This document shows positions 9,230 through 36,602 of a DNA stretch of 64,000 nucleotides, piece by piece. The stretch is from a bacterium. GTDB taxonomy: Bacteria; Verrucomicrobiota; Verrucomicrobiia; Limisphaerales; RI-55. The number at the start of each line of letters is the position of its first letter. Position 1 is the stretch's first letter. Both the position numbers and the translations under genes were made by a program. The notes beneath the pieces were generated by a model. It had not been told where the DNA came from. It searched no databases and was given only the letters and a program-made list of their open reading frames with translations. The DNA lies in NCBI GenBank assembly GCA_016124235.1, contig WGOC01000029.1, positions 1 through 64,000 of the forward strand, read 5' to 3'.

Positions 9230-11998
9230 ATGCCTGAACCCATTCCCAACGGCTTCTTCTGCCGCGACCTGATCGTCTTCAATCATCTGCGACGCGGTGG
9301 TTACGTCGCGAAAGGATTTGTCTTTGAGGCACCCGATCTGACGAACAGTCCCATCGTCGACCTCAACGACTTCCAGGATCAACTCTGTCTCCTGCTGGCC
9401 TCCCTCCACGAAAACCAACGCCTGCAAGTGCAATACTTCTGCGATTCCGACTACAAGGGGGAATTGCTGCGTTACCAGCAGGAGACGGAGTCTTTTTCCA
9501 ACGTCTGGACCAAGCGTGCCCGCAATGAACGCTTCGCGCGTTACTGGCTGGCGATGTCCGAGCGAAAGCTCCGTCGCCAACGGGTCGTTTTCTACGTGTC
9601 GCGATCGCTGGAGAACGTCCCGAAGGGATTCCAGACCGCTGCCGCGCGCCGCGAATACTACAACACGTTGCTCGACCAGCTCGAAATCGAGTTCGGGCAC
9701 ATCCACCGATTGTTGCTGGAAATCTTCGGTTCAGGCGGCGCGCGTATCCTGCCCATGTCCGACCTCGACCATTTCCGGCATTACAAACGGTTTCTGAATC
9801 CCTCGCTCAATGACCGGTTTGATTTCGACCCGACGGATGGGTTTGTACCCGATCTTTCGATTCAGGAAAACTGCTGGCATAGCGAGGGCAGTGGACAGAG
9901 CGATTTCGGGTTCTTCCTCGACGGCCATTATCACTCGCTCATCGTCCTGACCCGCTGGCCGCGCACGACGTATCCCGGCATCATCCAGCGCCTGACCAAT
10001 CTCCGGCTGCTCGATTACACCATCACGGTGAACGTTGATCCGCTGCCGATCTCACGGGAGATCAGCAAGGAGGAAAAGGAACACGACCGCGTGGCCGGCG
10101 ATTACGCCAGCGAGAAGAAAATCTCGCTGCTCACCGTGATGGAGAAGAAACAGAAGAAGATCCACGCCCTGATGCAGGGGCAGACGATTCCGTTCCACGC
10201 GATGATGGCCATTCGCGTCTGGGACAAAACGCGTGACGGTCTCAACGCCAAGGCCGGGGCAATCAAGAACGCCATCAACTCGATGAACGCGGCCCAGTAT
10301 TTCGAGAGCAACCTGCCCAGCACCTCGAAAAACCTGTTCTTCCAGACCTGGCCGGGCTGGACGTGGGGACGCTACGAACATCGGAAGCTTTACGCGGAAC
10401 ACCGGTTCCTGGCCGACATGCTGCCGGTGACCAGCACGTTTACCGGGCACCTGGCGACGGCCGAGGCGATCTACGACGGTCCGAACGACAACCTGGTCGG
10501 GATTCAAACGTTCTCCAGTGGCGACTCGGCGTCGCCGCAGCACGCGGTGTTGCTCGGGATGTCCGGTTCCGGTAAGTCGGTCACCGTCTGCGACCTGCTC
10601 ACTCAGACCGAAGGCTATTTCGCCTACACCGTCATCATCGAGGAGGGACTCAGTTACGGCATTTACACCGCCACAGTCGAGGAAGGTGCGCGACCCATCA
10701 TCATCCATCCGGACGGGGACTTGACCATCAATTACCTCGACACGAAGGGCCTGCCGCTCACACCGGATCATCTGTCGGCGGCGACCGCCCTGGTCGCAAG
10801 GATGATCGGCACTTCCTCCCAGGAAGACAAACAGATGCTGCGCCAGGCGCAGATCGCGAAATACCTCAATCTGCTTTACGAGGACGCGTTCCAGGACTGG
10901 CAGAAAAAGCGTCACGATCAATTGCTCGACATCGCCCGTCACGCGCTGGCGCTCCAGAAGTTCCGGGTCGAGCACATGCCACCCGGTGCCACCAGCCTCG
11001 AAACCTTCGCCGACTTCCGCGACCGGGCAGTGCCCGGCTCCCAAATTGCGAAGCCTGGACCCAATGCGCCTGCGGCGCGGGGCGGCCGGTGGAACGAGTG
11101 GGCACAGGCTTACTTGAACCAGTTCAGCGAAGCCGAGGCTTTGAAGTTTCTGAAAGAACCGAAAACCAGCAAGGAGGTCCGCAACTTGGCATTCGCCTAC
11201 TTTGCGCCGGAGGAATTCCCGACTCATCGGATGCTCCAGGAATTGATGATGCTCGATCCGATGGGCGCCGAACGCGATCAGATCATGGAAATCGCCACGC
11301 TCATCCTGCCGTGGTGTCGCGACGGCAACTACGGCTGCCTGTTCGACGGCACGAGCAATCTCTCGCTCACCGGCAAAATCGCCCACTTCGAGTTGGGCTA
11401 CATCCCCGAGTCTGCCAAGGAATTGAAAGCGGCATCGGGCTTCCTCATCACGAACCACGCGCGTAAACACATCATGACGTTACCGCGCGCCTTGCGAAAG
11501 CGGAACGTCTATGAGGAAGTCGCGCGTTTCCTCGACATCCCGGGCGGCCAGGAAATCGTTCAGGAATCCTACGCCCAGCTTCGCAAGTTCAATTGCTGGA
11601 ACATCTCCATTGTTCAGCAGTACGCCCGGTTCAAACAGTCGCGTATCCGATCGGCAGTCTTTGGCAATAGCCGCCAGTTCTTCATTATGCGCCAGAATGA
11701 TCGCGCGGATCTGGACGACATGGGCCGGGACATCGCCCTGCCGGAAGTCACGCAGCACGCGATCATGAATTACCCGTTGCCCGACCATCAAACCGGCCAG
11801 AAGTATTCGCCGTTCACTTATCTGCACACCGACTCCGCCCGCAATCTTTGCGGCACGGTCCACAACGTCGCGTCGCCCGAGATGCTCTATTGTTCCAGTT
11901 CGACCGGCGAACACTTTGACCGCCGAGCCCGCGAACTCCGCCAAAGCAAAAGCATCGTCGAAGGCATCATCCAACACGCCACCCGACCCAACGACTGA
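9230..11998 (+). CDS. TrbE/VirB4-like conjugal transfer ATPase
   Basis: 922 aa; Walker A LLGMSGSGKSVTVCDLL; VirB4-type size and position. Confidence 0.85.
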   Translation: MPEPIPNGFFCRDLIVFNHLRRGGYVAKGFVFEAPDLTNSPIVDLNDFQDQLCLLLASLHENQRLQVQYFCDSDYKGELLRYQQETESFSNVWTKRARNERFARYWLAMSERKLRRQRVVFYVSRSLENVPKGFQTAAARREYYNTLLDQLEIEFGHIHRLLLEIFGSGGARILPMSDLDHFRHYKRFLNPSLNDRFDFDPTDGFVPDLSIQENCWHSEGSGQSDFGFFLDGHYHSLIVLTRWPRTTYPGIIQRLTNLRLLDYTITVNVDPLPISREISKEEKEHDRVAGDYASEKKISLLTVMEKKQKKIHALMQGQTIPFHAMMAIRVWDKTRDGLNAKAGAIKNAINSMNAAQYFESNLPSTSKNLFFQTWPGWTWGRYEHRKLYAEHRFLADMLPVTSTFTGHLATAEAIYDGPNDNLVGIQTFSSGDSASPQHAVLLGMSGSGKSVTVCDLLTQTEGYFAYTVIIEEGLSYGIYTATVEEGARPIIIHPDGDLTINYLDTKGLPLTPDHLSAATALVARMIGTSSQEDKQMLRQAQIAKYLNLLYEDAFQDWQKKRHDQLLDIARHALALQKFRVEHMPPGATSLETFADFRDRAVPGSQIAKPGPNAPAARGGRWNEWAQAYLNQFSEAEALKFLKEPKTSKEVRNLAFAYFAPEEFPTHRMLQELMMLDPMGAERDQIMEIATLILPWCRDGNYGCLFDGTSNLSLTGKIAHFELGYIPESAKELKAASGFLITNHARKHIMTLPRALRKRNVYEEVARFLDIPGGQEIVQESYAQLRKFNCWNISIVQQYARFKQSRIRSAVFGNSRQFFIMRQNDRADLDDMGRDIALPEVTQHAIMNYPLPDHQTGQKYSPFTYLHTDSARNLCGTVHNVASPEMLYCSSSTGEHFDRRARELRQSKSIVEGIIQHATRPND

Positions 11999-15525: not shown

Positions 15526-17010
15526 TCAAGTTTGCTGGTGCTCCAAGTTCAGAGACGAATGTGCGGTCCGCCATTTTGCAATGGCCTCATCACTGGATTG
15601 CGCAACTATTTCGGCAGCCTGGATGTAAGGACCCTTTAACAACTCAATGTCAAGATCACTGTGCCAAATTGTTACAACACCATCAACGATTACTCGAGTC
15701 TCGTCGTGTAGTGTTCGTATTAAATCCTGAATTCCTTCTCGTAGCAGAGACTCGTCGGATGTCGAAACCAGTATTTGTCGAAGGCCGTTATCTTGACCGC
15801 TGACCGGATCTCGCCAATGGCCATTGTGCCAGCCCTTGATTCTGAGTTCATCCATTACGCATTTTGGCGCACGAAGAAGCGCAACCGGAATTAGGGTACA
15901 GTTCGGAATCGATATATCGCCTGGAAGCTTGGCCAGCGCGTCATCCACCGAATTGGCACAGATCTCAACAACATTACCTCGTACCAACCGACGGATGGTA
16001 TTCACGTCAATCTCGGGATGCCACATCGTGCAATATGCCGTTTCCACCATTGAGACAACCTCCCACTGAATCATTTCAATCCAGGATTTGAGCCGACCGT
16101 TCCGGTCTTTTAGACTGAGCGAGCTATCTCTAAAAATGTCCCGAAGGCCAGTGTCAAAGCCCGTCGCTGGATCGCGGGAATATCCAGAATGCCATCCCTT
16201 GTCTCGCAGCGCTTCCATTACGGATCTTGGCGAACGCAGCACGATCACGGGTTCTGTCCCAACGGGCGGGCGCCAGAATTTGGAAGGGTTAACCTGCCCG
16301 GAAATGTCGCTGGTTCCGTCAGCCTGGCCGACCAAAAACGGATCCGGAGCATAGGTGCGAAATTTTGACATGCACGGACCCATCACCCAGTCGCAATGCA
16401 CGGCTGCATTGGCCCATACTTTGTAAAGAGCTTTCATCACCTCTTGGCCTCGCAAAGCATAACAATGGGTTCGTTGGATTCCGCCACCATTCCCGGCCCT
16501 GACAATGCCAGGCGCAACCTGAATGGGCTGCGAGTTAATGTGTTGGCCACCAATCATCAAACACTGCCAATCATCAGGAACAGAACGTAAGAATTTGGCA
16601 ATATCCTGTGAAAATGTTTTCCCAAAAATCGCATCGTCCTCAAGAACCAGCAGAGACTCTATGTCCTCCTGAATTGCGCGCTCCAATATCGTCATATGCG
16701 ACCGAAAACATCCATAGCTGCCTCCACCAGTCTGCCAGTATTTTGGAACCCCCACCTTGTCTCCCTCAATTGCTGGAAAAACAGCGGGCAGGACAAACGG
16801 CCAGCTTACTTTCCTTAGCTCATTCCAAAATCGGTTCAGTCTGTCCGGGCGGCGGCGCAAATTGACAACCCAGACCTGTTGAAAAAGCGCGAAATAGTTG
16901 TTACAATTCGTTGCAGACAATGCAGTCCGTTGTAAGTCTTCCTTCATTGCACGATCGGGTCCTGGACTGGCCGCGTTTGTTACTGTGGCGTCATTTGTCC
17001 TCTTCTGCAT
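15526..17010 (-). CDS. glycosyltransferase family 25-like protein with internal C-terminal duplication
   Basis: VWVVNLRRRPDRLNRFW..SYGCFRSHMTILERAIQEDIESLLVLEDDAIF GT25 motif; two ~120-aa repeats. Confidence 0.75.
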   Translation of the reverse strand: MQKRTNDATVTNAASPGPDRAMKEDLQRTALSATNCNNYFALFQQVWVVNLRRRPDRLNRFWNELRKVSWPFVLPAVFPAIEGDKVGVPKYWQTGGGSYGCFRSHMTILERAIQEDIESLLVLEDDAIFGKTFSQDIAKFLRSVPDDWQCLMIGGQHINSQPIQVAPGIVRAGNGGGIQRTHCYALRGQEVMKALYKVWANAAVHCDWVMGPCMSKFRTYAPDPFLVGQADGTSDISGQVNPSKFWRPPVGTEPVIVLRSPRSVMEALRDKGWHSGYSRDPATGFDTGLRDIFRDSSLSLKDRNGRLKSWIEMIQWEVVSMVETAYCTMWHPEIDVNTIRRLVRGNVVEICANSVDDALAKLPGDISIPNCTLIPVALLRAPKCVMDELRIKGWHNGHWRDPVSGQDNGLRQILVSTSDESLLREGIQDLIRTLHDETRVIVDGVVTIWHSDLDIELLKGPYIQAAEIVAQSSDEAIAKWRTAHSSLNLEHQQT

Positions 17011-17284
17011 TTCAGTCGACTAAGATCAGGTGTCTTAGTTGTCAATCTAAATCCACAGGTTCCCGATTTCGACAAAGGCTCAACGCCACAACCACCTTTG
17101 GCCAAGGACACAGACCTTCACTTGTTCTTGGCGAGATCGCTCAATTCCATCCTGCGTTGAAAACTTGACATCAGCGAACCAATGCAGTCTAAGGAATTTA
17201 AATCGTCATAAGCTATTGTTGGAACTGTCGGAATGGATTCAATTGTGGGCCTCACGGTGGCAAATACATGGTATTTTTCAAAAT

Positions 17285-18064
17285 ATGGAGCCAACAGAAA
17301 AACGGATCACGGCTTATACCGTTAGTAACCCCGATGGGTACGAAATAATTCCTGCGCCATCGAATCGCCAATGGATGGACGATACGGACCAAAACTTCGC
17401 GTACCGCTGCCTCCCACTTACAATTGCGAATCAGTCAGGTTGGTTCATTTGCAGCCCAAGTTCGTTCATGGTTCAATGGAACGGCCGACACGGGAAGGAG
17501 GATACATTAATCATTCATTCCTCAGATTCCAAGATTCAGTGTGCTTCCAGTCACTTTGGTTATGGTATCATTACTTTTCAATTGCCTTATTTATTCGTAA
17601 CTTCGCCAGACACCAACTTGTGGGTCAAAGGACCAACCAACCATCCCAAGGATGGAATATTTCCATTGGAGGGAATCGTCGAAACGGACTGGGCTGCTTC
17701 AACGTTCACGATGAATTGGAAGATTACTCGTCCCGATGTTCCCATTGGTTTCTCCAAAGGCGAACCCATCTGCATGATCGTTCCTCAAATCCGAGGACTT
17801 GCTGAGACGATGCGGCCCGTTACCAAGGATATTTCCACGAATTCGGAGTTGGCTGAAAACTATCGATCTTGGAATCAAAGTCGCTCAGATTTTTTGAAAG
17901 GTTTGGAAGAAAGGAGAAAAGATGCGGTCTCGAAAAAATGGGAAAAGGATTATTACAAAGGTATAGACAGCACTGGAAACCGCTTTCGCTCCCACCAGAC
18001 GCAGCTAGAGCTGAGGCCGTTCAGCAGCGAGACTCGCACACAGGAGAGCGCCCCTCATTCATAA
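17285..18064 (+). CDS. DUF6065-like protein
   Basis: NRQWMDDTDQNFAYRCLPLTIANQSGWFI..; start chosen at MEPTEKRITAY (track ORF starts 17165). Confidence 0.65.
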   Translation: MEPTEKRITAYTVSNPDGYEIIPAPSNRQWMDDTDQNFAYRCLPLTIANQSGWFICSPSSFMVQWNGRHGKEDTLIIHSSDSKIQCASSHFGYGIITFQLPYLFVTSPDTNLWVKGPTNHPKDGIFPLEGIVETDWAASTFTMNWKITRPDVPIGFSKGEPICMIVPQIRGLAETMRPVTKDISTNSELAENYRSWNQSRSDFLKGLEERRKDAVSKKWEKDYYKGIDSTGNRFRSHQTQLELRPFSSETRTQESAPHS

Positions 18065-18105
18065 ACGGTGAGCCCTTTGGATTGTTCTACATCAGCCGCG
18101 TTTTA

Positions 18106-18846
18106 ATGAACATTATGGATTCCCTCGCCACGAGCACTCTGGATGATTGGTCTCGATGCTGGGAAAACGATAACGACTACAACAGTTGGTTCCACGCAAC
18201 AGCCACGATTCTGACCAATCAAGATAGTCTTTTGAAATCTCACAGAGACTGGGTCGAAGCGCGAGATTATGGATTCGGGGATCGGGCTTTTCACCATATC
18301 TGGAAGTTGCTGGTTGACCAAATGCCTTCCAATTTCAGTTTTTTAGAAATTGGTGTATTTAGAGGCCAAGTACTTTCTCTGATTGCGTTGCTCGCCATGC
18401 ACACGAATCGCAAAGCGCAAATTTACGGGCTAACACCTCTTACCAATTACAGGGATCGTTGCTGCACTTACCCCGTGAGTGAATACGAGAAAGACATTGA
18501 AACCATTCATAGCCAATTCAATCTCCTCCCCAATTACAACCTCATTGTTGGTGCGTCGCAGGAGCGAAGGATGATTGATGAAGCGTCTCGCAGAAAATAC
18601 ACAATTGTCTATATTGATGGCGGCCATGATTATGAAACCGTTGTAAGCGATATTGTGAGCTATGGAGCATTGGTGGAGCACCGGGGCTATTTGGTAATGG
18701 ACGATTCATCAAATCATTTGAACATCGGCAATTGCTGGCCGGGTCTGGAACCAGTCAGTAGAGCTGTTCGTAATATCTTGGAACCAGATTCGACGTTTAA
18801 ACACCTCTTTGCCTGTGGCCACTTGCGAGTTTTTAGGCGCAAATGA
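18106..18846 (+). CDS. class I SAM-dependent methyltransferase
   Basis: FLEIGVFRGQVLSLIALLA..YTIVYIDGGHDYETVVSDI..GYLVMDDS. Confidence 0.75.
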   Translation: MNIMDSLATSTLDDWSRCWENDNDYNSWFHATATILTNQDSLLKSHRDWVEARDYGFGDRAFHHIWKLLVDQMPSNFSFLEIGVFRGQVLSLIALLAMHTNRKAQIYGLTPLTNYRDRCCTYPVSEYEKDIETIHSQFNLLPNYNLIVGASQERRMIDEASRRKYTIVYIDGGHDYETVVSDIVSYGALVEHRGYLVMDDSSNHLNIGNCWPGLEPVSRAVRNILEPDSTFKHLFACGHLRVFRRK

Positions 18847-19538
18847 ATCTCGATGTAATCACTCTTGCAACCAACGAATCAGCCATTGGCTACAAAAAGC
18901 TTTTGGAAAGCGCCTGTCGCTGCGGAATCAAGATTACCAACATTTGGGACGGAAAACCTTGGCGAGGTCTTGCGGCGAAGCCCCGATTGATCAAGCGGTA
19001 TCTCGAAGATCGACCAAGCGGCGAAGAACTCATTCTCTTCGTTGATGGCGTGGATGTGGTCTTCAACCACCGTCCGCGCTCCCTCGTTGATTTGTATGTT
19101 GAACAAGGGTTCAAGATATTATTTAGCGCGGAAAAAAACTGCTACCCACGAGCCGACTGGAAGGACAGATTTTCTACTGCTTTGGGTGATTTTCGGTTTC
19201 TTAATTCGGGATGCATTATGGGGCCTGCGTCCGACTTACTAGAAATGCTTAATGAAATCAAAGCTCACGAGATTCTAGATGACTACCGACGACATGACGG
19301 CGAATGGCAATCTTTCATCGATCAGGAGTTTTTTTCAGAGTACTATTTGAATCATCAGGATATTGTGGGTTTGGATTCATCTTGTCGGATTTGCCTTTCC
19401 CTGTTTCCCGATACGCCAATCACGCTCGAACGCAATCAGGTGAAAAGCTTGGAGTGCCAAACCTTCCCTGCCCTACTTCATGGCAACGGCCCCTCGAAAG
19501 CGGTCCTAGAAAGTGTATGGAAATGGCTTCAACTTTAA
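18843..19538 (+). CDS. PLOD/procollagen galactosyltransferase-like glycosyltransferase
   Basis: ILFVDGVDVVFNHRPRSLVDLY..ILFSAEKNCYPRADW..FRFLNSGCIMGPASDLLEML..DQEFFSEYYL. Confidence 0.8.
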   Translation: MNLDVITLATNESAIGYKKLLESACRCGIKITNIWDGKPWRGLAAKPRLIKRYLEDRPSGEELILFVDGVDVVFNHRPRSLVDLYVEQGFKILFSAEKNCYPRADWKDRFSTALGDFRFLNSGCIMGPASDLLEMLNEIKAHEILDDYRRHDGEWQSFIDQEFFSEYYLNHQDIVGLDSSCRICLSLFPDTPITLERNQVKSLECQTFPALLHGNGPSKAVLESVWKWLQL

Positions 19539-19552
19539 GATTGCACCGCGAG

Positions 19553-20236
19553 ATGAATCACGAACTCTGCATACTCTTTCTGCATCATCGCAACGATGAG
19601 CTAAGCCGGTTTCACTACAGCCTCTTTGAGAGCAATAATGACGGCGTACCGATAGTCCCCTTAACTTTTGGCAGTGGGCTTCCAGATGCCGTAAAAGTAG
19701 GTCGATGGCACTGGCCGGTGCATGACGAATGGTACTCGAACGACGTGATGATATATTCGTGGTTCGAGCAAAAGCAGCTGGCAGCTAGTCGATATGCCAT
19801 ATTCGATTACGACACGTTGTGTCTGCAGTCAGTTCGAGAGTTCTACTCGGAGGTTTGGGACTCGGATGTGGCCTGCGCAACGCCGATAACTTGCCAAGAT
19901 TCTGGTTGGTATTGGTTCGAACCCCAATTTGGAGCTAGCCGGGAACTCTTCGGAAATCAACTTGCAGGAATGACGCCTGCATCAGGGTCCTTTTTTTCAC
20001 ACGAGGCTTTGGCCGCGATGGTTAATTTGGCCAAACACAAGCTATACGCGCCCTTGTTTTGCGAATGTCGATTGGGCACCCTCGCTTCAACCGCCGGCTT
20101 TTCAATACGGCGAATACGGGACGACGCGGCAAGTTATGTTACCTGGAACGATGTCAGTCCGACGCATCGCGGCATTTGGCACCCTGTGAAAAGGATATTG
20201 CCAATGGAACCGAATTGCGAAGAACGTCACAATTAG
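19553..20236 (+). CDS. glycosyltransferase-like protein
   Basis: YAIFDYDTLCLQSVREFYSEVWDSDVACATPI; start could be 19517 (overlap) or 19553. Confidence 0.6.
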   Translation: MNHELCILFLHHRNDELSRFHYSLFESNNDGVPIVPLTFGSGLPDAVKVGRWHWPVHDEWYSNDVMIYSWFEQKQLAASRYAIFDYDTLCLQSVREFYSEVWDSDVACATPITCQDSGWYWFEPQFGASRELFGNQLAGMTPASGSFFSHEALAAMVNLAKHKLYAPLFCECRLGTLASTAGFSIRRIRDDAASYVTWNDVSPTHRGIWHPVKRILPMEPNCEERHN

Positions 20237-20247
20237 CTCTACAGACT

Positions 20248-21591
20248 ATGTCACACGAGCTGGTAGGCAAATCGCCTTACTTCGACTGGGTTCGCTCAGC
20301 TAGCGTTGTGATCGAGACGCTACTTCTCATTCGTCCAATAGAGTCAGCCGTCGACTTTGGCTGCAATTGCGGTCCTTGGCTTAGAGCGCTGATTGACCAG
20401 GGGGTAGACGATGTCATGGGCATAGACATCGCCGACCCAGGCGATAGCCTTCTCTTTCCACGCGAACGATTTCGCCAACACGACCTGACCAAACCGCTAG
20501 ACCTCGGTCGTCGCTTTGATCTTTCTATTGGATTGGAAACCGTGGAAGAACTCGAGGCAGGCGAGAGCACAGAGGAATACCTTGATACTTTGGCACATCA
20601 CAGTGATCTCATTCTGTTTTCAGCAGCAACTCCGGGACAAGGTGGCCACCTACATATCAATGAAAGACCACACTTCTACTGGCATGCGCAGTTGGCAATG
20701 CGGGGATATACCAGACTGGATGTAATTAGGCCCGTCATCTCAGGAGATCTAAGAGTAGCAGAATGGTACCGGAAGAACCTTTTTCTTTATGCGCGTACCG
20801 AAAATGCCAAGGGTGGCGGAATCGCATCATCGCGAACAAGTGTAACATCCACCATCAAGTTCGACCAATTATCGTCTACCCGTGGAATTAGCTGCAAACC
20901 AACCTCTCATCGAATTCTCGCATTAATTCCAGGAATGATACTCGCACGGAATCACGTGGAGATGATACATCTGCAATCTTACATTCTAGAGAGACTACGT
21001 TTGTCGCTTGAGGATTGTGAACTATTCACATCGCTCATTTGCGACCATATTTCAGCCGAATTGCAGAATGAAATTGCAGCAATCGGTGAAAGGTTCAATT
21101 ACTTCGAAGTATTGAATGATCTCAAACGCTGGCAATGGGGCATCCGAAATCCGACAACTCGTGGCATACAGCTGTGCCGAGAGTTTAATTGTACCCATTT
21201 GCTTAGGATTATCCAAGATACCTTTATATTAGAACCAAATGCATTCGCTGCAGATATGCTAGGCGTATTGGATAGGCAAGTGATCGCAGGATCAATTCAT
21301 AGCTGGCAGACGTCAGCTCATTTTCGTTACTGCGATGAGATGGGATTAGAAAGGCAAAATCCTCTCCGCTACGTGCACGGTGCGCTGATATTGGCGCCTC
21401 GAAGTCTTTGGGAACAGTTCTATTTGACACTTCCGAACTCAGTAAATCACTTCTTTGACGACTGCCTTTTTACCCAGGCTCATCTTCAAAGTGAGGGCGA
21501 AATTGCCGGATTGTCAGAGTCCACATGGAAACACCTGCATGGTATCGACTGCGAGCAGTGCGCGAAACTTAAGTCAGGAATCTTAGCCTAG
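20248..21591 (+). CDS. bifunctional-looking protein: N-terminal methyltransferase plus C-terminal glycosyltransferase-like region
   Basis: AVDFGCNCGPWLRALIDQGVDDVMGIDIADP..; C-terminal region RILALIPGMILARNHVEMIHLQSYILERLR.. Confidence 0.65.
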   Translation: MSHELVGKSPYFDWVRSASVVIETLLLIRPIESAVDFGCNCGPWLRALIDQGVDDVMGIDIADPGDSLLFPRERFRQHDLTKPLDLGRRFDLSIGLETVEELEAGESTEEYLDTLAHHSDLILFSAATPGQGGHLHINERPHFYWHAQLAMRGYTRLDVIRPVISGDLRVAEWYRKNLFLYARTENAKGGGIASSRTSVTSTIKFDQLSSTRGISCKPTSHRILALIPGMILARNHVEMIHLQSYILERLRLSLEDCELFTSLICDHISAELQNEIAAIGERFNYFEVLNDLKRWQWGIRNPTTRGIQLCREFNCTHLLRIIQDTFILEPNAFAADMLGVLDRQVIAGSIHSWQTSAHFRYCDEMGLERQNPLRYVHGALILAPRSLWEQFYLTLPNSVNHFFDDCLFTQAHLQSEGEIAGLSESTWKHLHGIDCEQCAKLKSGILA

Positions 21592-23230: not shown

Positions 23231-23248
23231 TTGTGTGTGACGCACACC
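23231..23248. promoter_or_regulatory. palindrome-like site TTGTGTGTGACGCACACC upstream of virB5-like gene
   Basis: 16/18 identical to 8076-8093. Confidence 0.5.
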
Positions 23249-23337
23249 TTCAGGCCTTCCTTGGTTGTAAATCTCTCCGCGTGATCGGCGGCGTGTCGCC
23301 GCCGGTTCCAGACCGCAACTCAACGAAAGGCATGATC

Positions 23338-24138
23338 ATGAATAAGCTTCTCAGCCTCATCCTGGTGACGCTCGGCGTCACCGTGTCCGCCCGCGCGCAG
23401 TGGGTGGTGTTCGATCCCACCATGAACGTCCAGTCGATTCTCAACACAGCCCAGGAGATCGCCAAGTATGTCGAGATGATCGAAAACCAAGTCCAACAGA
23501 TCCAAACGCTGACCGACCAGCTCAACGAGTTCAAACACTACGAGGATTTGTTCGGCAATCCGGGCAGCGTCTCGCTCGCCACCGCGCAGCCCCTGATCAA
23601 CGACCTGCAAAAGTCAGAACTCGGGCAAACGCTCACCACGATTGAGGGCTCGGTCAATGCGGGACAGGCCATGACCTACGACGCCGGTGGATTGTTTCAA
23701 AAGGTCGGCACCGCGTTCAACACACCGGGCGGGACAACCGTAAACCGGCCGGAAACGCCTTATCTGCCCGTCGCCGCCGTCCAGAAGACCACGGACAACT
23801 TCCTGTCTGTCTCCACCGACGCGACGGCGCGGCGTATTGCCTTGAAGGAACAAATCGCGCGGACGACCGAGGCACTGAAGAACGCGTCAACGGACGCGGA
23901 GGTCCAGAAGCTGACCGGCGTGCTCATCGGTCTCTCCTCCGCCCTCAACAACACGGACTACGAAATCAACCAGGCGACGTCCTCGGCCCTCGTTCAGGAC
24001 ATCGCCAATCGGAACGACACCCAACGCCAGATCGAGGCGAAGAAGGAAGAGCAGCACGCGGAGTTCACCGAAGCGGTCCAGAAATACGGGCAGACCTTCC
24101 GGCTCATGACCGCGCCCACGTCGTTCCCGACTCCGTAG
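23338..24138 (+). CDS. TrbJ/VirB5-like conjugal transfer protein
   Basis: signal peptide ARAQWVVFDPTMNVQSILNTAQEIAKYVEMIENQVQQIQTLTDQL; P-type DNA transfer VirB5/TrbJ style. Confidence 0.8.
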   Translation: MNKLLSLILVTLGVTVSARAQWVVFDPTMNVQSILNTAQEIAKYVEMIENQVQQIQTLTDQLNEFKHYEDLFGNPGSVSLATAQPLINDLQKSELGQTLTTIEGSVNAGQAMTYDAGGLFQKVGTAFNTPGGTTVNRPETPYLPVAAVQKTTDNFLSVSTDATARRIALKEQIARTTEALKNASTDAEVQKLTGVLIGLSSALNNTDYEINQATSSALVQDIANRNDTQRQIEAKKEEQHAEFTEAVQKYGQTFRLMTAPTSFPTP

Positions 24139-25245: not shown

Positions 25246-25905
25246 ATGGATACCACCAATCTCCGCCAGACACCGACGGGCAAACCCCAGTGCGCCACAG
25301 CGCGAAAGGCCTTCGATCCGACGCAATTGTTCGCCCAGCGCGATCGCCTGCCGTGGTTCTGGTTCTTCGTGGCCGTCGCGGTGTCGGTGTTGGCCGCACT
25401 CGACCGTTACCATCTCATCGAGCGTTTCAAGGAACGCGAACGGGTTGTCATCATCGATCCGGCCCAGACTTATTATGTCAGCCCGCTTCTCCAATTTCAG
25501 GAGGCGAAGGAACTGCACTTGCAGCAGGCGGAACTGGCTGCGGTCGCCTTCCTGGAACGCAATCCGAGGGATTTTGATCACCCCGATCTGTTGAAACAGA
25601 TGTTCCTCAAATCAGCGCTGCAAAAGGCCCGGGACCAGCATGCCCGCGAGGCGGTTGAGTTCCGGGCCAAACAACTGCGGCAAAAGCCGGAGATCGCGAA
25701 GATCGACATCCTAGCGACGCGCGAGAACGAGGTGCTGGCGACGGTGTCGGGCCAGGTGATCCGCACCGGCATTTTTCAAGCGAAGGCATTCAACGAAGCG
25801 TTCAACTTCAAATTGAGCCTCCGCCTCATCCGCAACCCCAACATGGCCGCCAACGGACGGTTCCCGACGGCGGTCGGCGACTTCAAATATGAAATCATCC
25901 CTTAA
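25246..25905 (+). CDS. TrbF/VirB8-like protein
   Basis: single N-terminal TM, 219 aa, operon position. Confidence 0.65.
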   Translation: MDTTNLRQTPTGKPQCATARKAFDPTQLFAQRDRLPWFWFFVAVAVSVLAALDRYHLIERFKERERVVIIDPAQTYYVSPLLQFQEAKELHLQQAELAAVAFLERNPRDFDHPDLLKQMFLKSALQKARDQHAREAVEFRAKQLRQKPEIAKIDILATRENEVLATVSGQVIRTGIFQAKAFNEAFNFKLSLRLIRNPNMAANGRFPTAVGDFKYEIIP

Positions 25906-26914
25906 CCTGTTCATCCTGTTGACCGCGAGCGTCGCGCTGGCGGAACCACCCGACGTAATCCAGCGCGTGACGCTCGATGAGCGCACGGTTGTCACCGTGC
26001 CCGTCGCGACCAATCGCGTCACCACGATCAGCTTCCCCGGACCCATCGCGGCGATTGATGCCGTGGGAGTGACGGCGGATGGAAAGACGCCCGGTCAGTT
26101 CCAATTGGCGCATACGAAGGGGTCAGCGTTTGTTTCCATCCGGGCATTGACTGCGAAGGCGGCGACCAATCTGAACATCCGCTGGAACAAGCACACGTAC
26201 GTCTTCGATTTGGTTGAGGACGATGTGCCGGTGCTCGCGCTGAACCTCGAAGAGCGGGTGATATCGGAAGCGGTGTTACCCGCTCCCCATGTAGCACCGA
26301 CGGACCTGCTGGCGTTGCTCGACAAGGCGAAGGCGTTTCCGTTGTTAAAACAGCAACATCCCGACGCCGTGGCCGGTGCTGAAGCGCGGACCTTTGGCGA
26401 TCAGCCGCAGGTCACTGATTTCAACGACTACGAAATCCGTATCGAGGAGGTGTTCCGGTTCAACCGGGAGGACACGCTCGTCTTTCACGTCACTCTCCGG
26501 AACAAATCGGAACGGGGGATTCGTTATCTGCCGGAGAGCTTCTGTGTGCGCGTGGGCAACCGGCTTTATTACCAGTCGATCAGCGACGCGCCCGGACTTC
26601 TCCCGCCGCATGCCGCGAGCACGGTTTACTTTGCGATCACCGGCACGCCCGACGGCGGGCGCAACGAACTGTCGCTCAAGAACGAGTTCAATGTGCTGGT
26701 GAGCCGGTTGCCTTCGTTTCCGGAAACGCCGGCCACGACGGCAGCCATTCAACCGCCGCCATCGCCACCGACCCGGCCCCCTGAACTGACTCCCGAGCTT
26801 GAATCACGGGCACGGGCAGCGCTTCACCGCGCCATCGAAGAATCAGAGAAGCCGTCCACAGGGTCGTCTCCTTCGTCCACCAACGCGTCCGACGCCAACT
26901 CCGTCCACCCATGA
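25889..26914 (+). CDS. TrbG/VirB9-like protein
   Basis: signal peptide; KAATNLNIRWNKHTYVFDLVEDD; operon position. Confidence 0.65.
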   Translation: MKSSLNLFILLTASVALAEPPDVIQRVTLDERTVVTVPVATNRVTTISFPGPIAAIDAVGVTADGKTPGQFQLAHTKGSAFVSIRALTAKAATNLNIRWNKHTYVFDLVEDDVPVLALNLEERVISEAVLPAPHVAPTDLLALLDKAKAFPLLKQQHPDAVAGAEARTFGDQPQVTDFNDYEIRIEEVFRFNREDTLVFHVTLRNKSERGIRYLPESFCVRVGNRLYYQSISDAPGLLPPHAASTVYFAITGTPDGGRNELSLKNEFNVLVSRLPSFPETPATTAAIQPPPSPPTRPPELTPELESRARAALHRAIEESEKPSTGSSPSSTNASDANSVHP

Positions 26915-28023
26915 AACCGCGCGATTTTCTAAACTTCTTCAAAACACCGAGCGGCCGGTTGCTATTGTTCGCAGGAATCTTCGGCGGGGGGCTGGTCGTT
27001 TTCAGCACGCTGCGCGGCCGTTCCGGTGGTGAGGACATTCAGGTCACACCCGCCGGAACAAACCCGACCGACAAACCGCAGACGGTGCAGTCGCTGGTGC
27101 GCCCGATGCAACCGTTTGATCCACCACCTCCCAAACCGGAGCCGAAACCGGCGGTGGTAAGATCCACGGCTCAGCCGACGGCCGCTGTTGAGTCTCCCAA
27201 GCGGGAACCAGCCGTCGTGGCTTTGGCCCCCATCAGCTTGTTTGTCGATGCCACTGCTGGCGTTCCCGAACCGAAAGCACCTGGTTCAATCTACGCGCCT
27301 TTCGGCCGGTTGATCCCCTGCGAGACCGTCATCACCGTCGATTCGTCGTCGATCCAGACGCCCATCATTGGTCTGGTGACGGAAAATATTTATCACGCGG
27401 GCAAACTGGTCATCCCGGCGGGCACCGAGGTCCACGGCACCGCGCAGACCGATCGCAATCGCGAACGCATCGCCGCCGGTGGCAGCTGGACATTCGTCTG
27501 GCAGAGCGGTGAGGAACTCAAGTTGAAGGCCGTCGCTCTCGACCGGGAATTTGCCGGCGACCAGGAAGGCTGGGGCATCACCGACGGCAGCGCCGGACTG
27601 CGGGGGCGCATCATCAAGTCCGACAACCTGGCGGAGATCAAACTCTTCGCGGCCACGTTCCTCTCCGGCGCGGCGAGTGCATTGACCGAGAAACAACAAA
27701 CCCTCTTCGGATCGCTCGATAGCCGCTCGCTCAACAATGCCCCGTTCAAGGGCGCCCAGGACGTGCTCGCGACATACGCGCAACGGATCTACGACGCGAT
27801 CCAGAAGGACGGATTCTATGTCCGGGTGCCCAGCGGCAAGCAGTTTTACCTCTACGTCCTCCAGACCATCGACCGCAGCGACGCGACCATCGGTGGTTCG
27901 CTAAAACCGTTCGTCAATGAGGACAAGGACGGCGCGCCAGCTTCACCTCCCCTTGCCGCATCCGGTGCGGGTCATACACCCATCCCGGACGCGACCAAAG
28001 CAAACTCAACCCCGATGTTTTGA
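26911..28023 (+). CDS. TrbI/VirB10-like protein
   Basis: N-terminal TM, Pro-rich linker, GRLIPCETVITVDSSSIQTPIIGLVTENIYHAGKLVIPAGTEVHGTAQTDRNRERI. Confidence 0.85.
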   Translation: MKPRDFLNFFKTPSGRLLLFAGIFGGGLVVFSTLRGRSGGEDIQVTPAGTNPTDKPQTVQSLVRPMQPFDPPPPKPEPKPAVVRSTAQPTAAVESPKREPAVVALAPISLFVDATAGVPEPKAPGSIYAPFGRLIPCETVITVDSSSIQTPIIGLVTENIYHAGKLVIPAGTEVHGTAQTDRNRERIAAGGSWTFVWQSGEELKLKAVALDREFAGDQEGWGITDGSAGLRGRIIKSDNLAEIKLFAATFLSGAASALTEKQQTLFGSLDSRSLNNAPFKGAQDVLATYAQRIYDAIQKDGFYVRVPSGKQFYLYVLQTIDRSDATIGGSLKPFVNEDKDGAPASPPLAASGAGHTPIPDATKANSTPMF

Positions 28024-30790: not shown

Positions 30791-33700
30791 ATGGCCATCC
30801 GCCGCCAATCTCCGCAATCCGACCAGCAGCAGCTTGACCTTTTCTCAACACCGAGGCTGAACCATGACACCGCTGACTCAATATGGACGGATGGCCGAGA
30901 AACACTGGCGCGAGTTCCTTCCCCGGATGGTGCGCGACCTGGAGCAGAAGGGGATTCTCCATCAAATGCTGCTCGAAGCGGAAGAGAAGACGAAGGACGA
31001 AATGGCCACACTGCGCACTCAATTGATCCGGCAGGGATCAACGGCACAACAGGCCCACGACCAGGCGTGGGAAATGGTTCGCGAGAAATACATCCTCCTC
31101 CCTCCCGAGTCCTTGACCTTGCGGTCGGCCACACGGCCTTCGGCCGGGGGCGACTGACTGCCGAGGTACCGCAGAGCAATCCAAACGCGTATCGCATCAC
31201 GGAGGACGACCGGCTGGGGGAAGGCGGACCCAAACAAAAATTCCGGCAGAACCTCAAGGCGGTCGAAATCCTGCGGACGTTGGACGCGGAGGAACGACCG
31301 GCCACGCCCGCGGAAAAGGCAGCCCTGGTCAAATACGTCGGCTGGGGCGCGATGCCCCAGGTCTTCGATGACGACAACCGGGACTGGACCGGCGAACGTG
31401 AAGCACTCCGAAACAATCTGAGTGACGAGGAGTTCGAGTCCGCCCGGGCGACGACACTCAACGCTCACTACACGTCACCAGTGGTCGTTGGCGCGATGTA
31501 TCGGGCGCTCGAACGATCTGGGTTTCCGGGCGGCCGCATCCTTGAACCGGCCTGCGGCATCGGTCATTTCATCGGCATGATGCCCGAAACGATACTCCGT
31601 CGTTCGACCATCACCGGCGTTGAAATCGATCCGCTCACCGCACGGATCGCCAAAGCCCTCTATCCCGACGCGGATATCCGCCAGCAACCCTTCGAACAAA
31701 CGAAGCTGGCCGACGGGTTTTATGACCTTGCCATCTCCAACGTCCCGTTCGGTGACTACCCGGTTCACGATCCGCGCTGGAACCGGTTCAAGCTGCCCAT
31801 TCACGATTATTTCTTCGCCGCCACGCTGGAGAAGGTGCGGCCCGACGGTCTGGTGCTGTTCATCACCTCGCGCGGCACGATGGACAAGTTCGATTCGACC
31901 CTGCGGGAACTGCTCACTCAGCGGGCGGAATTCCTGGGCGCCCTCCGGCTGCCGAATGATTCCTTCAAAAAGAACGCGGGAACCGAGGTGACGACTGACA
32001 TTGTGATGTTGCGCAAACTGCGTCCGGGTGAACCTCCCACCGGCCCGGCCTGGAAGTCCCTGGCGGATCACATCAACGATCTCGGCGAAGCCTTCACGAT
32101 CAACGAATACTTCGCTAGGCGGCCGGAGATGATGCTGGGAAACATGCGTTACACGGGGCGGATGTATCACGTCCACGAACCGACGCTGGAACCAGACGGG
32201 CGTCATTTGAGCGAAGCCCTGGATCGGGTCATTGAGCGGCTTCCGCAAAATATTTACGAGGCGCGCACGCAACAGATCGCCGAGCCCGCCCTCGATCAAA
32301 CGCTTCCTGCTCCGGACGTTGTCAAACCCAACGCCTACTGCCTGCACGACGGCATGGTCTGCATCCGGGAAGAAGACACCCTGCGTCCGCTCAACGATCT
32401 CCCCATCCAGACCCGGTCCCGAATCCGGGGGATGGTCCAGTTGCGGGACGCCGTCCGGGACTGTCTGCGCTTACAGATGGACGGCAGTGCGGAGGATCAG
32501 GTGGTTGAGGCGCGCTTTCAACTCAACCTGGCCTACGACCGGTTCGTTTCGCGCTTCGGCCCCGTCAATCTTCGCACCAACCAACGGGCCTTTGATGGCG
32601 ATCCGGATTTGCCGCTGCTCCTTTCGCTGGAACATTTCAACGACGAAACAAAGGCAGCGCAGAAGGCCGCCATCTTCACCGAGCGGACGATCCATCCGCG
32701 TCAGCCGGTCGATTCAGCCGGCACACCGAAGGAAGCGCTCGTCGCCTCCCTCAACGAACGGGGCCGGGTCGACCTTGAGCGCATGGCCCATCTGTTGGCC
32801 CGCCCGGTTGACGACTTTCTGCCGGAGTTGAAAGGGATCGTTTTTCTCAATCCCCAATCAAACTGGTGGGAGACGGACGACCAGTATCTCTCCGGCAACG
32901 TGCGAGAAAAGTTGGCCGCTGCGGAAGCCGCGGCGGTTGCGGACCCGCGCTTCGCCGAAAACGTCGAGGCGTTGAAATCGGTGCAGCCCCCGGATCTGTC
33001 AGCGACGGAGATTGACGTGCGACTGGGTTCAGCGTGGTTGCCGCCGGAGGACGTCAGCGATTTTGCCAACAGTCTGTTGAACATTCCTTCAGGAGTCGGG
33101 GTGAGCCATATTCCCGCGCTGGGCACCTGGCACGTCAACGGCAATTGGGAGGCCAGGGGCGCAACGGCCAACACCACCGATTGGGGAACGGACCGCTACA
33201 CCGCCCTCGAACTCATCGAGGCTTCCCTCAATCTCAAAACGCCCACGGTCTACGACACGGTGGACGACAAACCCGTGGTCAACGCGCAGTCCACCGAAGC
33301 CGCCCGCGAAAAGCAGGAACGCATCAAAGAACGGTTCAAGGAATGGGTTTGGTCGGATGACTCACGCCGTGAACGCCTCTGCCGGCTTTACAACGACACT
33401 TTCAATCACACCCGTCTGCGCACGTTCAACGGTGATCATCTGACGTTGCCGGGAGCCAGCGGGACGATTCAGTTGCACGGACATCAGAAGGCCGGTGTGT
33501 GGCGCATCCTGCAAACGCCGAACACCTTATTGGCTCACGTCGTCGGCGCCGGGAAAACATTCACCATGGTCGCTGCCGCGATGGAGTTGAAACGGCTGGG
33601 ACTCGCCCGGAAACCGTTGTTCGCCGTGCCCAATCACATGCTCGGTCAGTTCTCAACCGAGTTGCTCACGCTCTATCCGAACGCGAACATCCTGGTCGCC

Positions 33701-35977
33701 GGCAAGGCGGACTTTGAGTCGCGGAATCGGAAGAAGCTCTTCAGCCGGATTGCCACCGGCAACTGGGATGCCGTGATCGTGACGCACTCGGGCTTCGAAC
33801 GGATCCCGCTGGCCCATGAGACGAAGAAGCGGTTCTTTGATGAGCAGCTTCATGAGTTGGAAGTGATCCGTCGCGAACAGGCCGACGGGTCCAACAGCCG
33901 CGTGGTCAAGGAACTGGAGCGGGCCAGGAAGCGGCTGGAAACCAGGCTTCACGGACTGGCGGCCGATCAAAAAAAAGACAACACACTCACCTTTGAAGAG
34001 CTGGGTGTCGATCGACTGTTCGTCGACGAGGCGCACTACTTCAAAAACCTGTTTTATGTCACGAAGATGACCCGCATTGCCGGCTTGCCGCAAACGGCCA
34101 GCGAACGCGCCTTCGACATGTATCTGAAAGTGCGTCACATCCAGTCGCTCAACGGCGGTGGCGGTGTGGTCTTTGCAACGGGAACTCCCATCGCCAACAG
34201 CATGGCCGAGATGTTCACCATGCAACGCTACCTTCAACCCGATGATTTGAAGAACCATCATCTGAATCATTTCGATTCGTGGGCAGCGACGTTTGGCGAG
34301 CCGGTGACGGCAATGGAGCTGTCTCCGGACGGCGCTGGGTATCGCCTGAATACCCGGTTCGCCCGGTTCATCAATGTCCCGGAGTTGATGCAGATGTTCC
34401 GCCAGTCCGCCGAAGTGCAGACCGCCGCCATGCTGCATCTGCCACGCCCGAATCTCGAAGGCGAGAAGCCCACGATCAGGAACGCACCGGCAACGGAAGA
34501 CCTGAAAGAATTTGTCGAACATCTGGTGGCAAGGGCCGACCGCATCCGCATGCGGCAGGTTCATCCCCACGAAGACAACATGCTGAAGATCACTTCAGAA
34601 GGCCGGAAGGCGGCACTCGATCTCAGGCTGATCCAGCCCTCGGCCCCGGATGATCCCCGGGGAAAGGTCAATCAAGCGATCGAAAACATCTTCCGCATCT
34701 GGCAGGAAACGAACGTTGATCGCTCCACACAACTGGTCTTTTGCGATCTCTCAACACCCCGGGACAAGGGGTTCTCAGTTTATCGCGACGCGGCGGAAAA
34801 GTTGGAGCGCTTGGGCGTGCCGGATACGGAGATTGCCTTCATCCAGGATCATGATTCGGACGCGGCGAAACTGGCATTGTTCCGGGACGTGCGATCGGGC
34901 AAGGTGCGCGTTCTTTTCGGCAGCACGCAGAAGATGGGCTCGGGAACGAACGTGCAGGAGCGATTGATTGCCTTGCATCACCTGGACGCCCCGTGGCGAC
35001 CGGCAGACGTGGAGCAGCGCGAAGGGCGAATCCAGCGGCAGGGAAACAAGAACCAAGTCGTTTCCATCTATCGTTATGTGACCGAAGGTTCGTTTGACGC
35101 CTATATGTGGCAAACGCTGGAGACGAAGGCGAAATTCATCGCCCAGGTCATGAGCGGCGACATGACGATACGGCGGCTGGAAGATTTGGAATCAGCGGCG
35201 CTGACCTATGCTGAAGTGAAGGCCATCGCATCCGGCAATCCGCTCGTCATTGAGAAGGCCCAGGTGGACGCCGAGTTGATGCGGCTTACCCGATTGCGTT
35301 CCGCCCATGCCGAGGAACAATTTCGCATCCGGACCAGTCTCCGGCACGCGCACGAAGACGGCGCAATGTTCACGGCACGCCAGGTAAACATCCGCCAGGA
35401 CATCTCGATCCGACAGGATACGTCCGGGGACAAGTTTGCCATCGAATTGGACGGACAGACGCTCAACAACCGCGGGGTAGCCGGGGAGTTAATTCTGCGT
35501 CGGGCCGGGAAGGTGAAGGACCGATTCGGCGATGATGTTCGCATCGGTCGCTTCGCGGGTTTCGATTTGTTCCTGCGCGTCACATTCAACAATGATGTCG
35601 AGATCATCGTGCGCGGGAAGAACAGCTACGCGGCCCGCGTCACGGACACAGCATTGGGTACGATTCGTTCACTCGAAGCCACGGTCCAGGGTTTTGAGGA
35701 ACGCGCTGTGAGGCTGGAAGCCGACGTCGCCGACGCCCTGAAGCGCACCAAGGAACTTGAAACCAAGGTGGGCGCTCCGTTCGAGAAGGAGGAACGGTAT
35801 CAGGAGCTGACCCGTCGGCAGAGCCAAATCGAGGAAGCGCTCGACCTCACCAGGAACCAGGCGCCCAGCCAGATCGAGGCGGAGCCTGGTGAATCAGTCG
35901 ATCGAAAGAACTCCGAACGCCATTCTCAGCGCAACTACCAACCCCATCGTGGCCGCCGCACGGCCATCCACTCCTGA
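30791..35977 (+). CDS. giant N6-adenine methylase/SNF2-like helicase fusion of conjugative elements
   Basis: VKYVGWGAMPQVF; ILEPACGIGHFIG and SNVPFGDY MTase motifs; AHVVGAGKTFTMVAAAMELKRLG; DEAHYFKNL; helicase C-terminal FGSTQKMGSGTNVQERLIALHHLDAPWRPADVEQREGRIQRQGN. Confidence 0.9.
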   Translation: MAIRRQSPQSDQQQLDLFSTPRLNHDTADSIWTDGRETLARVPSPDGARPGAEGDSPSNAARSGREDEGRNGHTAHSIDPAGINGTTGPRPGVGNGSREIHPPPSRVLDLAVGHTAFGRGRLTAEVPQSNPNAYRITEDDRLGEGGPKQKFRQNLKAVEILRTLDAEERPATPAEKAALVKYVGWGAMPQVFDDDNRDWTGEREALRNNLSDEEFESARATTLNAHYTSPVVVGAMYRALERSGFPGGRILEPACGIGHFIGMMPETILRRSTITGVEIDPLTARIAKALYPDADIRQQPFEQTKLADGFYDLAISNVPFGDYPVHDPRWNRFKLPIHDYFFAATLEKVRPDGLVLFITSRGTMDKFDSTLRELLTQRAEFLGALRLPNDSFKKNAGTEVTTDIVMLRKLRPGEPPTGPAWKSLADHINDLGEAFTINEYFARRPEMMLGNMRYTGRMYHVHEPTLEPDGRHLSEALDRVIERLPQNIYEARTQQIAEPALDQTLPAPDVVKPNAYCLHDGMVCIREEDTLRPLNDLPIQTRSRIRGMVQLRDAVRDCLRLQMDGSAEDQVVEARFQLNLAYDRFVSRFGPVNLRTNQRAFDGDPDLPLLLSLEHFNDETKAAQKAAIFTERTIHPRQPVDSAGTPKEALVASLNERGRVDLERMAHLLARPVDDFLPELKGIVFLNPQSNWWETDDQYLSGNVREKLAAAEAAAVADPRFAENVEALKSVQPPDLSATEIDVRLGSAWLPPEDVSDFANSLLNIPSGVGVSHIPALGTWHVNGNWEARGATANTTDWGTDRYTALELIEASLNLKTPTVYDTVDDKPVVNAQSTEAAREKQERIKERFKEWVWSDDSRRERLCRLYNDTFNHTRLRTFNGDHLTLPGASGTIQLHGHQKAGVWRILQTPNTLLAHVVGAGKTFTMVAAAMELKRLGLARKPLFAVPNHMLGQFSTELLTLYPNANILVAGKADFESRNRKKLFSRIATGNWDAVIVTHSGFERIPLAHETKKRFFDEQLHELEVIRREQADGSNSRVVKELERARKRLETRLHGLAADQKKDNTLTFEELGVDRLFVDEAHYFKNLFYVTKMTRIAGLPQTASERAFDMYLKVRHIQSLNGGGGVVFATGTPIANSMAEMFTMQRYLQPDDLKNHHLNHFDSWAATFGEPVTAMELSPDGAGYRLNTRFARFINVPELMQMFRQSAEVQTAAMLHLPRPNLEGEKPTIRNAPATEDLKEFVEHLVARADRIRMRQVHPHEDNMLKITSEGRKAALDLRLIQPSAPDDPRGKVNQAIENIFRIWQETNVDRSTQLVFCDLSTPRDKGFSVYRDAAEKLERLGVPDTEIAFIQDHDSDAAKLALFRDVRSGKVRVLFGSTQKMGSGTNVQERLIALHHLDAPWRPADVEQREGRIQRQGNKNQVVSIYRYVTEGSFDAYMWQTLETKAKFIAQVMSGDMTIRRLEDLESAALTYAEVKAIASGNPLVIEKAQVDAELMRLTRLRSAHAEEQFRIRTSLRHAHEDGAMFTARQVNIRQDISIRQDTSGDKFAIELDGQTLNNRGVAGELILRRAGKVKDRFGDDVRIGRFAGFDLFLRVTFNNDVEIIVRGKNSYAARVTDTALGTIRSLEATVQGFEERAVRLEADVADALKRTKELETKVGAPFEKEERYQELTRRQSQIEEALDLTRNQAPSQIEAEPGESVDRKNSERHSQRNYQPHRGRRTAIHS
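30864..31157 (+). CDS. hypothetical ICE protein nested out of frame in the methylase/helicase ORF
   Basis: MTPLTQYGRMAEKHWREFLPRMVRDLEQKG..AWEMVREKYILLP looks like a genuine globular family. Confidence 0.6.
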   Translation: MTPLTQYGRMAEKHWREFLPRMVRDLEQKGILHQMLLEAEEKTKDEMATLRTQLIRQGSTAQQAHDQAWEMVREKYILLPPESLTLRSATRPSAGGD

Positions 35978-35991
35978 CCAGCACACAGGGC

Positions 35992-36216
35992 ATGAAAGAA
36001 GTATTTATGGAAACAACTCTCGAACCCGAACCGCCGTTCAAGAGCAAGTCGGAACGACTCGCCTACTCGGTGCAGGAAGCCGCCGATCTTTTGGGCGTAA
36101 ACTATTTCAGCATCTACCGCCTGATCCAGCGGGGACAGCTCAAGGTTTGCCGGGTGCTCCGAGGCAAACTGCTCATCCCGCGCGACGAACTACTGAAGCT
36201 GCTGAAGTCGCAATGA
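35992..36216 (+). CDS. excisionase/AlpA-like HTH_17 protein
   Basis: LAYSVQEAADLLGVNYFSIYRLIQRGQLKVCRVLRGKLLIPRDELLKLL. Confidence 0.8.
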   Translation: MKEVFMETTLEPEPPFKSKSERLAYSVQEAADLLGVNYFSIYRLIQRGQLKVCRVLRGKLLIPRDELLKLLKSQ

Positions 36217-36283: not shown

Positions 36284-36422
36284 TACTATACCGCCGTTCT
36301 ATACTATATGCCGTTTTTCGAGCCAAAAGCAGCCAAAGAGAACCAACGCCAAAAGTGCATGAAACTCCTGAAAACATTGAGCGAATCAACGATTGCCAAC
36401 GAGAATCAAAAATGGCCAAAAA
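36284..36422. repeat. cluster of short direct repeats next to the island end
   Basis: TACTATACCGCCGTT / TACTATATGCCGTTT (36284, 36302) and four GCCAAA(A) motifs at about 36322, 36332, 36348, 36415. Confidence 0.45.
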
Positions 36423-36433
36423 CCCTGGTTTAC

Positions 36434-36476
36434 AATTTCGAGTCAGGTGCCTTTAACCACTCAGCCACCCTTCCCG
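36434..36476 (-). tRNA. 5' half of a tRNA-Ser(CGA) gene (partial)
   Basis: minus strand GGAAGGGTGGCTGAGTGGTTAAAGGCACCTGACTCGAAATTG: acceptor 5' strand, TG, D-arm, anticodon stem 5' strand and loop CTCGAAA; no matching 3' half. Confidence 0.75.
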
Positions 36477-36602
36477 CCGGGCCGCTCTTGATAGTCCAAG
36501 CTTACCCCGGCGGCAACGGTTTTCGATCGCGTTCTGGTCCTTTGTGAATTATCGATTCGGACATTGAAATCCGTCGGCTCCTGCCCATATCCTCCCGGCA
36601 TC

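Follow-up and report, generated by a model that had tools for sequence, protein, structure and literature searches.

A fragment on the minus strand of contig C9 of assembly G000 very probably arose when a conjugative element integrated site-specifically into a tRNA-Ser(CGA) gene, split it, and displaced its 5′ half. The usual tRNA-targeting island brings a 3′ half, and the tRNA stays on its native promoter. The chemistry here is that of an ordinary tyrosine recombinase, in a rare polarity on which the first-pass annotation of this DNA had not remarked. The window, i.e., the whole stretch of 64,000 nucleotides analyzed, corresponds to C9:1-64000; the assembly consists of 47 contigs (3.89 Mb) and is estimated to be 56% complete. 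The features at the fragment are as follows.

36284..36309, plus strand: tandem arm-type sites with a 13-bp period, TACTATACCGCCG/TTCTATACTATAT
36322..36422, plus strand: four GCCAAA motifs between the arm sites and the core, at 36322, 36332, 36348, and 36415
36426..36434, plus strand: element-side half-core (..GGTTTACA), which substitutes for tRNA nt 41 onward
36435..36474, minus strand: probable displaced 5′ half of tRNA-Ser(CGA), nt 1-40, the att identity block, reading GGAAGGGTGGCTGAGTGGTTAAAGGCACCTGACTCGAAAT
36436..36442, minus strand: putative 7-bp overlap (crossover region), the anticodon loop CTCGAAA
36475..36530, minus strand: chromosomal 5′ leader, an apparent leftover of integration

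The first-pass annotation had claimed a minus-strand 5′ half of tRNA-Ser(CGA), and nt 1 to 40 indeed match an intact tRNA-Ser(CGA) on a second contig, C10, exactly. This second copy of the 40-nt block (C10:26101-26140, minus strand; 100% identity; E = 7.8e-14) is the sole other one in the assembly. The first base of the block is tRNA nt 1, and its last base lies one past the 7-nt anticodon loop, in agreement with the divergence that had been described right after that loop. Beyond the block and 5′ of nt 1, the window and C10 loci diverge completely. By analogy with known tyrosine integrases, the 7 bp of the anticodon loop would be the crossover overlap. ARAGORN found no complete tRNA in the window; the intact tRNA-Ser(CGA) that the first-pass annotation had proposed to look for lies on C10, next to an integrase gene.

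C10:26051-26140, minus strand: intact tRNA-Ser(CGA) (ARAGORN)
C10:26224-27711: tyrosine recombinase (integrase), 495 aa (PF00589, 8.2e-20)

The integrase is a single, undivided open frame, and its best match among solved structures is Gp33 (5vfz; 2.7e-9). It is head-to-head with the tRNA on the element side, and 84 bp separate it from the 5′ end of the tRNA. Reading outward from the tRNA 5′ end, C10 carries element DNA with the tandem TTCTATACTGCTG/TTCTATACTATTA and then the integrase. No integrase was seen among the window open reading frames examined. The first-pass annotation had read the half-gene as marking where the island ends and had expected the integrase, if not lost, at the opposite end; C10 bears this out with an intact tRNA, an integrase, and the same arm repeats. 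The complementary tRNA half expected at that far end was borne out in part: the integrase is there, but it accompanies an intact tRNA with a 5′ half apparently brought by the element rather than a lone 3′ half.

The TACTATA..CCGTT direct repeats, earlier likened to arm sites, proved to be tandem 13-bp sites that recur only beside the C10 tRNA. The window tandem and the C10 tandem are the same repeat, and both lie on the element side. A 24-bp arm pattern (≤3 mismatches) matched exactly two places in the 3.9-Mb assembly, one beside each tRNA copy; the reversed pattern, used as a control, had 0 matches in the assembly. In 71 of the 81 integrase-side intervals from related loci, a 9-bp motif recurs with a period of exactly 13 bp, compared to 0.72 in shuffled intervals. 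Other spacings in these intervals were rare or absent (0 for 10 to 12, 14, and 16 bp; 2 for 15 bp). A match to the arm pattern at locus L144, on an AT-rich contig without an integrase or tRNA-Ser, was discarded as chance, and a search of IMG/VR with the att pattern found none.

We searched 320 genomes with a half-site pattern built to exclude intact tRNAs. The pattern occurred in 21 genomes, once in each, and its reversed control had 0 matches. The identity block stops 1 nt past the anticodon loop in 21/21 of the half-sites found with the pattern, and the 13-bp tandem is present in 15/21. The half-core is kept as TTTACA or near variants in the half-sites of G000, G026, G009, G101, G204, G214, G220, G227, G260, and G270. 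An integrase of the Ser(CGA) type, from the clade described below, was present in 12 of the 21 half-site genomes and in 11 of the 299 others (p = 1.5e-10; p = 1.2e-9 without the window's genome), p-values that overstate independence because the genomes are related. Among Ser(CGA) elements, arm type was equal at both ends (TTCTATACT with TTCTATACT, ATCTGATAC with ATCTGATAC) in 9 of the 10 genomes in which both could be read, as matched P and P′ arms should be. The exception was G244, whose half-site resembles part of a tandem array.

Two observations had been named in advance as speaking against the island reading: the lack of an att repeat elsewhere and the presence of the same fragment in genomes without the island. 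An att repeat was found on C10, and half-sites co-occur with the integrase across the 320 genomes. These data also bear on whether the half-gene could be a tRNA pseudogene, arisen by chance or unrelated to any element, or could have an antisense regulatory role. Genomes do contain partial copies of tRNAs, which counts for such an origin; we nevertheless regard it as scarcely credible, given the exact 40-nt identity from nt 1, the arm repeats common only to the integrase end, the recurrence of the same fragment in 21 genomes together with the integrase, and the empty site known from a relative in the clade. Rfam gave nothing at gathering score around the fragment; its single match, a weak one to a CRISPR repeat (E = 3), lies elsewhere.

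The leader at 36475..36530 ends in ..GGCG before the half-gene, as do the leaders in several element-free relatives and in the half-sites of G026 and G037. It is probably the native tRNA promoter; a simple scan of this leader found no promoter directed towards the half-gene. All four GCCAAA motifs in the first-pass annotation are present, and some keep their positions in G026, G101, and G270. They are possible accessory (Xis/Int) sites.

Left of the half-gene, the window carries the following genes.

9230..11998, plus strand: VirB4/TraC-like conjugation ATPase (P-loop_TraG, 3.3e-06; TraC-F-type, 3.3e-24, below the equivalog cut-off)
23233..24138, plus strand: DUF4141 conjugation gene (Pfam DUF4141, 3.1e-10), which we take to be VirB5/TrbJ-like
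25889..28023, plus strand: VirB9 (CagX)-like and VirB10 (TrbI)-like type IV secretion genes (CagX, 3.2e-06, below the curated cut-off; TrbI, 7e-17)
30791..35977, plus strand: SNF2-type helicase/methyltransferase-like island gene, 1728 aa (Pfam SNF2-rel_dom, 3.5e-06; Helicase_C; Methyltransf_11)
36007..36216, plus strand: excisionase (xis)-like gene, 69 aa (HTH_17, 1.4e-11; TIGR01764 "excise," 5.9e-11, above the cut-off)

The excisionase-like gene had been recognized in the first-pass annotation, and a homologue (67 to 84% identity) adjoins the half-sites of G101, G270, G026, G214, and G260. The shift in gene content reported at the half-gene holds broadly, with type IV secretion genes on its left and genes for CotH, DUF748, a radical-SAM/TRAM protein, and a CvpA-like protein on its right. 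Amid the conjugation genes, at 15526-21591, are a glycosyltransferase-25-like gene and several methyltransferase-like genes, possibly cargo for surface-sugar modification.

C10 encodes a relaxase (TrwC PF08751, 4.6e-84; MobF NF041492, above the cut-off) and, at C10:33719-35206, a P-loop protein with the motif TGDTGSGKT that is a putative coupling protein (T4CP). Right of the tRNA there are also a ParA-like protein, a Fic protein, and a metal-efflux pair. A separate group at C10:35579-42607 (GHKL-ATPase, DUF4420 [PD-(D/E)XK], Z1, and a C5 methylase) resembles MORC-like restriction/defense cargo. The last 14 kb of C10 include MetE and ribonucleotide reductase genes, which may or may not be cargo. 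Since an excisionase and type IV secretion genes lie at the window end and an integrase and MobF relaxase lie at the C10 end, the gene content is best read as that of an integrative conjugative element (ICE).

We infer that the left part of C9 and the right part of C10 belong to one element. The right end of C10 and the left end of C9 share no overlap of ≥18 bp, and the contigs are separate; with MetE and ribonucleotide reductase at the far right of C10, the full extent of the element and its status as a single element are unproven. The window half-site and the C10 integrase end could thus come from two different elements of the same specificity, or from a tandem array at the tRNA-Ser site. 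Such arrays are common in relatives: the far flank of the half-site is an integrase-side leader in G009, G101, G214, G215, G239, G240, and G244, and at L160 and L179 a half-site of one arm type abuts the integrase-side leader of another element at the same tRNA, giving integrase-half-arm junctions with unlike arms. In this assembly, however, there are just two copies of the arm pattern, both of the same type, the far flank of the window half-site is no integrase leader, and the conjugation functions are divided in a complementary way between the window and C10 ends. We therefore consider two elements distinctly improbable.

For a single element, integration would proceed as follows. When the element is circular, its attP would hold tRNA nt 1 to 40 as a core between xis and int, and the two tandem arm-site pairs would flank this core as P and P′ arms. 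Upon integration, the old 5′ half would remain with its old upstream flank (window position 36475 onward), and the element's 5′ half would join the chromosomal 3′ half to rebuild the intact tRNA now on C10. Directly upstream of the rebuilt tRNA there would be element DNA and the divergent int, and the tRNA must then be transcribed from a promoter borne by the element. The element probably brings this promoter with the 5′ half, a presumptive promoter takeover. We infer both the exact crossover point and the present activity of the window element. The locus might instead be a dead remnant in which the integrase end and half-site persist and excision has been lost; many relatives have broken integrases, and any activity of the element here is presumptive. 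Against this, the open frames of the integrase and xis are undamaged, the 40-nt att block has no mismatch, and neither arm pair has been lost; we regard a remnant as unlikely, though less so than the two-element arrangement.

Integration into a tRNA 5′ half can be read within one contig in relatives. In G072, tRNA-Met (1762489-1762564, minus strand) is followed by the integrase (1762685, plus strand) and, ~47 kb away, by an exact 41-nt 5′ half (1809537-1809577, minus strand). Other single-contig elements are found in G151 (11 kb) and G239 (contig C28; ~42 kb). All three have the fragment and the tRNA on one replicon in the same orientation, with the 5′ fragment upstream of the gene. The empty site for the G072 element is present in a congener (G012:C44:89639-90865), where the flanks and an intact tRNA-Met are contiguous (~70% identity). 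The integrase alone is clearly shared between the G072 element and the window element, so G072 supports the mode of attachment and not the cargo. For the window locus itself, the same-genus genome G001 has both flanking gene clusters with no tRNA beside either, and an empty site was not seen there; a congener of G026 searched for an empty site gave no useful match. Remnants of integrase frames lie just outside the att sites in G151 (C300, beyond 36893) and at L086 (G009:C51, near position 90), which suggests repeated occupation of the same tRNA-Ser.

We defined the integrase clade by E ≤ 1e-60 and found members in 79 of the 320 genomes of the order. At 81 of 98 distinct clade loci, the integrase is head-to-head with the 5′ end of an intact tRNA; these loci cover 18 anticodons, and the distance from the tRNA 5′ end to the estimated integrase start is 61 to 142 bp. 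At several further clade loci, the integrase is joined to a lone tRNA 5′ half. Four loci have the ordinary 3′ polarity, three facing the tRNA 3′ end and the fourth carrying a 3′ half. On a quick tree, the mode labels need 3 changes and the tRNA labels need 28. Among 19 loci outside the order with a tRNA nearby, 15 face the 5′ end and 4 face the 3′ end. We concluded that the rare 5′ polarity is the rule in this Verrucomicrobiota-wide integrase clade.

The 3′-polarity loci (L163, L167, L168, and L175, in G057, G053, G110, and G280) are at tRNA-Arg and are nested in the clade, a placement that suggests one or two polarity switches inside the 5′-half lineage. At six other loci (L043, L129, L131, L133, L152, and L174, in G017, G075, G235, G052, G214, and G239), the integrases form one clade, and each adjoins a tRNA-Arg(CCT)-like anticodon arm plus 3′ half. 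No recognizable 5′ half is present at these six, of which five are clear and L133 is degenerate; the gene there appears to be broken and not restored.

Positions −16 to −7 of the 81 integrase-side element leaders are rich in A+T, and T is present at −1 in 81%. Their pooled sigma-70-like score towards the tRNA was 7.51, versus 7.07 ± 0.10 for shuffles, and was above all 200 of these. The T at −1 and the score above shuffles are expected if the leaders are selected for tRNA expression and processing. When the tRNA leader of the window element itself was scanned alone by a simple method, no strong sigma-70 promoter was detected. In over half of the 81 leaders there is a G at −3/−4; counted by eye, T is present at −1 in ~37% of the tRNA-Ser leaders of 19 relatives without a recognized element. 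The bias at −1, −3, and −4 might be a product of selection for processing by RNase P. It is possible, and we advance it tentatively, that across a phylum-wide clade with 5′-half integration as the rule, the tRNA is cut from its host promoter and placed under that of the element, with tRNA supply and excision control physically coupled. In such a coupled arrangement, the element leader and promoter, the divergent integrase promoter, and the arm sites would lie in the same 60 to 140 bp.

The clade offers dozens of loci across 18 anticodons, single-contig cases, and an empty site, and it can be used to study what usually gives the 3′ polarity the advantage and whether control of a host tRNA by an element is possible. 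These elements escape searches for an integrase plus a 3′ fragment; the 13-bp tandem beside the 5′ end of a tRNA offers a simple way of detecting them.

Three known systems invite comparison. The window and C10 together contain a relaxase and type IV secretion genes (TrbI, DUF4141, P-loop_TraG, and a weak CagX), and the element resembles bacterial ICEs with MobF and a VirB-type type IV secretion system in its TrwC/MobF relaxase, VirB4-, VirB9-, and VirB10-like genes, tyrosine integrase, and xis; it differs from them in being split over two contigs, and its capacity for transfer is putative. The second system is pTN3 of Thermococcus, in which attB is a tRNA 5′ half, 41 bp are common to attP and attB, and the rebuilt, intact tRNA is parted from its original promoter and is said to be served by that of the integrase (PMC5495485; PMC8371274). 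The pTN3-like archaeal integrases use a tRNA 5′ half, with the tRNA then expressed from the integrase promoter (PMC8371274; PMC5495485), and such integration is described as uncommon in bacteria (PMC8371274). The structures of the window/C10 pair and of G072/G012 likewise imply an attP with the tRNA 5′ half and a recombinant tRNA that loses its original promoter. However, integration of pTN3 disrupts its own integrase gene, in an archaeal host, whereas the integrase here is whole and divergent; because it is unsplit, the window element works like the pTN3 type but is not a member of it. It also differs from pTN3 in its tandem 13-bp arm sites and xis and in being bacterial and ICE-like, and the likeness drawn here is one of attachment mode. 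The third system comprises Islander-type islands, which have an intact tRNA, a displaced fragment, an integrase, and, in type A, crossover at the anticodon loop (PMC4383910). Here too there are an intact tRNA, a fragment of the same tRNA that reaches the gene end, an integrase inside the island, and a putative crossover at the anticodon loop. Of 3919 Islander islands, 3760 leave 3′ fragments and 159 leave 5′ fragments (PMC4383910). In contrast, the 5′ fragment is the rule across this whole integrase clade, and a bacterial clade so large and so consistent in its use of the 5′-half mode is new as far as the literature consulted shows.
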